Positions 37,136 through 37,978 of a stretch of DNA of 64,000 nucleotides are shown in pieces. The number at the start of each line of letters is the position of its first letter. Positions within the stretch are counted from its first letter, which is position 1. A model generated the notes under the pieces. The model saw only the letters and a list, made by a program, of their open reading frames with translations. It had not been told where the DNA came from and made no database searches. The position numbers and the translations under genes were made by a program. This DNA is from Pedobacter westerhofensis (GTDB taxonomy: Bacteria > Bacteroidota > Bacteroidia > Sphingobacteriales > Sphingobacteriaceae): positions 1 to 64,000 of the forward strand of contig NZ_FXTN01000015.1 of assembly GCF_900182595.1 (NCBI RefSeq). The letters run 5' to 3'.

Positions 37136-37978
37136 TTAATTTGAATAGTAATTAAGTAAGTTATATATTGGTTCTTTTGTAATCGTAGTAATTTCAAAGT
37201 TATTTCTCTCTGCAACCAGGCGCAGCCGGTCCTGAAAAGTTCCTGCCACGATGCCTACGAAATGAACTTCCTTCTCGGGATGCTCTTTGAGGGTAGGGAG
37301 CAGGTATGTATTTATATAACGTTGAAAGGCATCATCAATTAATTGCTGAATATACGGATGTTCTCTGTTTTCTATATAAAAATCAAGGAAAGAACTTAGA
37401 AATTGCTGAGCTAATGACTTTTTGTAAACTCTTTCCAATATCTCTGATCTGTTAATATCATATTTCGTGCCGAATTTCCTGATGAGCTCAGCTGGCAGTT
37501 TTTCCTGCAGAAAGTGTTTAAGAATGATCTTTCCGAGGTAATTTGCTGACCCTTCGTCACCCAGGATAAAGCCCAGTCCAAAGTTGTTTGGTTCCGGATT
37601 TTGTCCATTGAAATATGCGCAGTTGGCACCACTGCCCAGGATACCTACAATACCCGTTTTGTTAAAACATGCGGCTATTGCTGCGCCATGGAGATCATCA
37701 TGAACGCTGATCTTTGCGAATTTGAAAAAGAGCGACAGGGATTCTGCCAGTTCGTTTCTTCTGTCGGTGCAGGTTGCACCGGCTGCAAAAACGTAAATCT
37801 TTTTAATCTGCTCTGCATGATTAATCAGGATCGTTTTTTTGTTGAGCTGCTGCAGCAGTGCTTTCTGGTCAACAAAAAAGGGATTGATGCCCGGCATACT
37901 GCATTCAGCTATCGTCTTACCGTCTTTAGCTATTTTCCAGATTGCAGTTTTTGTACCACTGTATACTACCGCTATCAT
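37136..37978 (-). CDS. BadF/BadG-type sugar kinase-like protein with degenerate phosphate-1 motif
   Basis: A 280-residue ASKHA-fold protein, paralogue of the kinase at 40221-41087. Shared motifs: a phosphate-2-like [29 protein letters not shown], and GIVAGTF near the end. The N-terminal phosphate-1 motif, DGGSTKTNW in the paralogue, is only [10 protein letters not shown] here: one residue shorter and without the acidic residue that normally handles Mg-[13 protein letters not shown] still has acidic residues at the sugar/catalytic site. It is locked between pfkA (one-base gap) and gap (five-base gap). It may be a weak kinase or a sensor of sugar or ATP; annotations would call it N-acetylglucosamine kinase. 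Confidence 0.8.

Follow-up and report, generated by a model that had tools for sequence, protein, structure and literature searches.

A predicted pseudokinase of sugar-kinase fold between pfkA and gap, a candidate sugar-gated regulator in one bacterial family

What is a sugar-kinase-fold protein with a degenerate ATP site doing between two genes of glycolysis? The gene order pfkA–K–gap lies on the minus strand of a Pedobacter genome, within the window analysed here (the whole stretch of DNA, 64,000 nucleotides), and its middle gene, which we call K, occupies positions 37136–37978 and encodes 280 amino acids. The host family consists of soil bacteria, and control of glycolysis in Bacteroidota is, to our knowledge, little studied. 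Non-catalytic sugar kinases are already known in eukaryotes; a bacterial protein of the K type, between pfkA and gap, is undescribed in the open-licence PMC papers searched. The best reading of the sequences is that K is a sugar-kinase pseudokinase, with an ATP-site loss fixed under purifying selection and a predicted absence of catalysis. Probably, K is dead for ATP, still binds sugar and has been kept to regulate some partner in a sugar-gated manner. If true, most of one bacterial family would carry a non-transcriptional sugar sensor at a control point of glycolysis.

A kinase-fold gene locked between pfkA and gap

The genes of the locus are as follows.

37136–37978, minus strand: K, predicted pseudokinase of sugar-kinase fold, 280 residues, between pfkA and gap
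37980–38966, minus strand: pfkA, ATP-dependent 6-phosphofructokinase (TIGR02482 above cut-off), upstream in the predicted operon
36129–37130, minus strand: gap, glyceraldehyde-3-phosphate dehydrogenase, downstream of K
39448–40137, plus strand: NrtR-like Nudix-type regulator, divergent to pfkA, context gene
40221–41087, minus strand: P40, intact paralogue of the same kinase family, context gene

An initial annotation of this DNA placed K one base from pfkA and five from gap, and the coordinates agree: a distance of 1 bp lies between the pfkA stop codon (37980–37982) and the start of K (37978), and 5 bp separate the K stop (37136) from the gap start (37130). It was also right that the paralogue at 40221 has an intact phosphate-1 motif (ADGGSTKTNW). 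The nearest named relative of K, at 93% identity, is in P. hartonius. Two more relatives are encoded in the host genome itself, P40 (25% identity) and C3 (38%), the latter on a separate contig (G000:C3:143081) and with the intact motif DSGSTKTDW. The Nudix gene scores 155.8 bits against NF050029 (cut-off 400).

We collected 117 distinct K orthologues, 68 from a set of 80 loci that is nearly all Pedobacter and 49 from other genomes, a sequence being assigned to K when, of the three paralogues in the host genome, K was its best match. They were compared with 161 distinct relatives (71 from outside the family, 65 paralogues in the 80-locus set and 25 other family members), many of which, given this make-up, are not independent. 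Sixteen of 309 reading frames, of 250 amino acids or fewer, had been dropped (fragments at contig edges and the split K at locus L131), and merging of identical sequences reduced K from 129 to 117 and the others from 164 to 161. pfkA lies directly upstream and gap downstream of K in 115 of the 117 orthologues; the remaining two (L117 and L130) have gap, with no pfkA within the DNA read. The distance from pfkA stop to K start is 10 bp or less in 109/115, and between the K stop and the start of gap lie about 30 bp or fewer in 97/117, and otherwise up to about 200 bp. Among the 63 K loci with at least 3 kb of upstream DNA, all from the 80-locus set and nearly all Pedobacter, the divergent Nudix NrtR-like regulator is found in 62 and P40 as well in 55.

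K has the fold of amino-sugar kinases

The AlphaFold model of K (mean pLDDT 95.7) has a glucokinase-like ASKHA fold, and this kinase fold spans the 280 residues end to end. Its closest structure is K1058 with MurNAc (8ow7; Z 37.7, rmsd 1.6 Å over 276 residues), with lower scores for apo MurK (Z 35.5), apo K1058 (35.4) and MurK with MurNAc (33.7). A control model of C3, on the same sequences, scores 35.9 against apo MurK, 35.7 against apo K1058, 34.3 against sugar-bound K1058 and 32.0 against sugar-bound MurK. The bound-minus-apo differences for K1058 and MurK are thus +2.3 and −1.8 for K and −1.4 and −3.9 for C3, a weak and mixed sign that the model of K leans a little further towards the closed form than that of C3.

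Among proteins of solved structure, those closest to K in sequence are T. forsythia MurK, B. thetaiotaomicron Q8A1P1 and P. gingivalis PG1100, followed by K1058. Fold and full-length homology are shared with MurK of Tannerella forsythia (8oqw, 8oqx and 8ow9; Z 35.5 and rmsd 2.0 Å for 8oqw) and with K1058 (8oqk and 8ow7), both treated in PMC10465942. MurK phosphorylates MurNAc and keeps the motif DSGST, whereas K is without the ATP contacts; the operons also differ, MurK being encoded in murTKQ and K in pfkA–K–gap. Profile likeness to the BcrAD_BadFG ATPase/kinase family and its NagK branch is distant (13.7 bits against PF01869, cut-off 31.5; 29.2 bits against NagK_SO3507, cut-off 370), and the phosphate-1 motif of that family is absent from K. 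Since intact P40 also falls under the PF01869 cut-off (23.3 bits), the score cannot separate K from P40.

Kinase folds that serve as sugar sensors have precedents. In fungi and plants, hexokinases without catalytic activity (XprF/HxkC, the HKL type and Gal3p) reportedly retain the kinase fold for regulation; these belong to other kinase families, are eukaryotic and lie outside glycolytic operons, unlike bacterial K. The ROK repressors NagC and Mlc use a bacterial sugar-kinase fold as a sugar sensor (PMC12696579) but carry a DNA-binding domain, which K, a 280-residue kinase fold alone, does not.

The ATP site is lost throughout the K clade

The ATP-side elements of K are the following; names of ASKHA motifs are in part those in common use.

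37937–37966, minus strand: phosphate-1 motif, degenerate, residues 5–14 (D6 to Y, T10 to K, K11 to T)
37622–37636, minus strand: phosphate-2 loop GSGAN, residues 115–119 (T116 to S fixed; N119, a sugar contact, largely kept)
37238–37255, minus strand: adenosine-side loop GIVAGT (GSVAYY in MurK), residues 242–247 (MurK S241 and Y244 lost)

Other motif names follow PMC4390882. In MurK structures S9, T10 and K11 contact the ATP phosphates, T116 the β-phosphate and S241 the α-phosphate, and Y244 packs on the adenine (PMC10465942). The initial annotation held that the phosphate-1 motif of K lacks its acidic residue and one position. The acidic residue is indeed absent from 117/117 distinct orthologues; the claim of a missing position fails, as DGGSTKTNW of P40 and YSGTKTAIW of K are of equal length and differ by substitutions only in an alignment with MurK and the paralogues.

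Position 6 is Y in 114 and F in 3 of the K orthologues, against D in 150 and E in 10 of the relatives (one gap), and position 10 is K in 71 and R in 43, the rest being H, N or D, against T in 152 and S in 9. The active-kinase motif DxGxT is therefore absent, with D or E at position 6 in 0/117 and T10 in 0/117. Lysine at position 11 occurs in none of the K orthologues (relatives, 159/161), position 116 is S in all 117 and T in all 161 relatives, and G145 is kept in 3/117 compared with 160/161. On the nucleotide side, the position of MurK S241 holds S in 21/117 K orthologues versus 157/161 relatives, and that of the adenine-stacking Y244 holds Y, F or H in 5/117 versus 157/161. Fixed or nearly fixed residues have appeared in K (Y/F6, K/R10, S116 and G134), of which G134 is present in 117/117 K, 6/6 of the intact C3 group and 6/12 intact kinases linked to pfkA or gap. 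Position 199 is D or E in 114/117 K orthologues and mostly K or R in the relatives (129/161).

With the acidic residue gone from 117/117 distinct orthologues, a sequencing error or a lone mutation is ruled out. Fixation of the loss, which the initial annotation had left to be checked, extends across the clade, where 0/117 sequences at the pfkA–K–gap position have an intact motif; such uniformity, together with strong purifying selection, makes chance loss of the motif untenable. Median dN/dS is 0.032 for K (30 pairs), 0.025 for gap (29), 0.023 for pfkA (30) and 0.017 for P40 (23), in pairs from the 80-locus set (nearly all Pedobacter) with a K dS between 0.15 and 1.0. K is under purifying selection close to that on pfkA and gap.

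Enrichment and entropy tests on representatives at 80% identity (47 K and 84 others, kinship ignored) locate the change. Of the 38 positions that the others conserve, K has lost nine (6, 10, 11, 116, 145, 191, 195, 221 and 243); seven of the nine are on the ATP side (six listed MurK–ATP contacts plus D6) and none is a sugar contact. With shared ancestry ignored, the ATP-side enrichment has a Fisher p of 0.0017 with D6 and 0.009 without it, and the sugar-side contacts alone give p = 0.30. At ATP contacts the columns of K are the more variable, with a mean entropy of 1.38 against 0.95 in the others, although K varies less over all columns (1.42 against 2.00) and also at sugar contacts (0.67 against 0.80); the permutation p is 0.025, again ignoring shared ancestry. 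The pattern indicates that residue loss in K is aimed at the ATP side.

The sugar site is kept

Two sugar-contact residues illustrate the opposite fate.

37694–37696, minus strand: D95, sugar O4/O6 contact and catalytic aspartate (role from PMC10465942), invariant in 117/117
37556–37558, minus strand: D141, sugar O1 contact (role from the same source), invariant in 117/117

The sugar-binding residues N32, G67, D95 and D141 are each found in 117/117 K orthologues, and N119 is kept in 104/117, with H or T in the other 13; all five are shared with MurK. Some drift is seen on the sugar side, where F34 is variable and position 94 is D, H, N or S. The statement in the initial annotation that the other motifs of K are kept thus holds for the sugar residues and only partly for the phosphate-2 loop, where S has replaced T116, and it does not hold for the adenosine-side residues, which are lost.

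In MurK the lobes close on the sugar, and ATP brings only minor change (PMC10465942). Taken with a kept sugar site and a lost ATP site, this closure suggests that K could be a sugar-driven switch.

Distribution and origin of K

K is scored as present in 128 of the 151 family genomes sampled and in 18 of 25 genera; the motif was read in 50 of these 128, and in one of them (G113) K is split. The best match outside the family reaches 285.7 bits among 192 genomes of the class, compared with at least 368 bits for the listed in-family K. We read 71 outside loci in 69 of 183 matching genomes, mostly from the best-scoring of the listed matches, and found an acidic residue at position 6 in every one (D in 64, E in 7). 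At least 12 of the 71 intact relatives are linked to glycolysis genes within flanks of about 2.5 kb: five directly after pfkA, two directly after gap and five after pfkA and an intervening gene. This intervening gene belongs to the aldehyde-dehydrogenase superfamily (homologous in 5/5, one scanned: L133, L137, L138, L191 and L192) and is possibly a GapN-type GAPDH; the row of pfkA, aldehyde-dehydrogenase gene and intact kinase implies an old link of the kinase family to glycolysis genes. Intact relatives in the same operon position, which the initial annotation set against its sensor idea, do not occur in the clade, and those beside pfkA or gap come from outside the family.

In a tree with 31 K rows and the motif columns retained, K is monophyletic (support 100/100) on a long stem (0.9). 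K, C3 and the copies from family f23 form one group (99/85), inside which the sister order is weak (83/43 and 94/88); the f23 copies are intact and have pfkA upstream in two of three cases. In other families, the relatives next to pfkA or gap retain (D/E)SGSTK and are placed outside the K clade, so that the intact, linked state is likely to be ancestral. Most simply, K arose from an intact pfkA-linked kinase that gave up ATP use in some ancestor inside the family. These kinases, intact next to pfkA, dead next to it, or gone, would form a natural series of how a metabolic enzyme becomes a regulator.

In the genera g5, g8 and g22 gap directly follows pfkA, with no K between, which implies that neither enzyme needs K as such. 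A pfkA tree has g5 and g8 branching outside the K-bearing genera and g22 inside, and its position makes the absence in g22 a loss. In G113 (locus L131) K is split by a frameshift into frames 2818–3055 and 2988–3675 on the plus strand, which could be decay or a sequencing error. Relatives of the Nudix gene (44% identity) also occur at L139, L214 and L220, three loci where an intact kinase is linked to pfkA or gap, and the gene may be an old regulator of the glycolytic locus.

K and C3 are inherited together

Of the same 151 genomes, 122 of the 128 that carry K also have a C3-level match (285 bits or more), against 0 of the 23 that lack K, which suggests, at the level of gene content, a functional link between K and C3 built on few independent events. 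K occurs without such a match in G140 (99% complete), in G085, G129 and G009 (71–92% complete) and in G113; in G008, where K is present, the C3 match is borderline at 250 bits. K, C3 and the K-linked pfkA are all absent from G056, some congeners of which have both K and C3, and the sole pfkA match of G056 falls with the host genome's second PfkA paralogue. That paralogue lies at G000:C6:221383–222207. G056 and two g6 genomes, G005 and G030, which lack K and C3, each have a single pfkA match of about 58% identity, the level of the second type.

Candidate roles of K

A broken ATP site, a kept sugar site and a fixed place between pfkA and gap make a non-catalytic sensor or regulator a good reading of K. 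The sensor proposed in the initial annotation survives in this form, though not with ATP as its signal: what K has lost is its nucleotide contacts, and this speaks against ATP sensing. We envisage that K derives from a MurK/NagK-type amino-sugar kinase, has lost normal ATP use and still holds a hexose or amino sugar in its cleft. K would presumably share a single message with PfkA and GAPDH. Sugar would close its two lobes, a step for which MurK needs no ATP (PMC10465942), and closed K would then alter a protein partner, either a co-encoded glycolytic enzyme (PfkA or GAPDH) or the co-inherited intact C3, possibly through the dimer interface of the family. What the sequences offer for this reading is fixed ATP-site loss, a fixed sugar site, locked gene order, purifying selection and co-occurrence with C3. 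More tentatively, and as a possibility that we would not favour in all its parts, K may be an ATP-independent sugar-gated regulator in the pfkA–gap operon, co-inherited with C3, that uses protein contact, and not transcription, to couple entry of amino sugars or hexoses to two steps of glycolysis, the committed one and that of GAPDH. The proposed role of K can be tested directly, since intact sister kinases, K-less relatives and solved homologous structures all exist.

Which partner K would act on bears on a possible, though doubtful, alternative in which K serves C3 as a subunit, regulatory or structural, and makes up the sugar-sensing or stabilizing half of a heterodimer, and the pfkA operon only sets its expression. 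The common group of K, C3 and the f23 copies, the co-occurrence and the nested co-losses (neither gene in g22 or G056; a frameshifted K and no C3-level match in G113) are all in keeping with such a pair, and MurK is a dimer whose interface enlarges upon sugar binding (PMC10465942). Yet C3 lies outside the pfkA–K–gap operon, five genomes have K (broken in G113) and no C3-level match, among them nearly complete G140, and the co-occurrence may stem from one shared gain and lineage-wide loss. Co-inheritance nonetheless points to C3 as partner at least as well as to PfkA or GAPDH. Somewhat less probable is a sensor of sugar 6-phosphates, with basic residue 10, in place of the phosphate-binding Thr, gripping the phosphate of GlcNAc-6P, GlcN-6P or F6P. 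Here the new conserved chemistry, K/R at 10 and D/E at 199 in the other lobe (114/117 each), sits where the transferred phosphate would be; the two residues could equally be a salt bridge occupying the vacant ATP cleft. Four of 117 K rows depart from the basic/acidic pair and two of those lose both. A mutual-information scan does not single out 10–199, which it ranks 4247 of 39060 pairs.

We regard it as unlikely that K has remained a kinase whose mechanism is slow or unusual and relies on PPi, a different donor or a different metal. The kept catalytic D95 and most sugar contacts speak for it, and some pseudoenzymes of other folds, such as SidJ, are said to have new activities. Against it, D6, T10 and K11, and mostly also G145, S241 and the adenine-stacking aromatic, are lost, so phosphate- and base-side contacts have gone together, and MurK is reported to be Mg2+-dependent (PMC5790795). 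The idea of a decaying relic of the kinase that stands beside pfkA in other families draws on the intact pfkA- or gap-linked relatives outside the family and on lineages with absent or broken K; it is very improbable given that new residues are fixed or almost so, that gene order is conserved in the loci read and that most sampled genera have K-level matches, and the dN/dS of K leads us to reject it.

As a separate observation on the surroundings of C3, the C3 copy of the host genome, at L161 (3962–4852, plus strand), comes after a gene that by eye resembles a TolC-type efflux gene and overlaps its end; L153 has a neighbour of similar kind.
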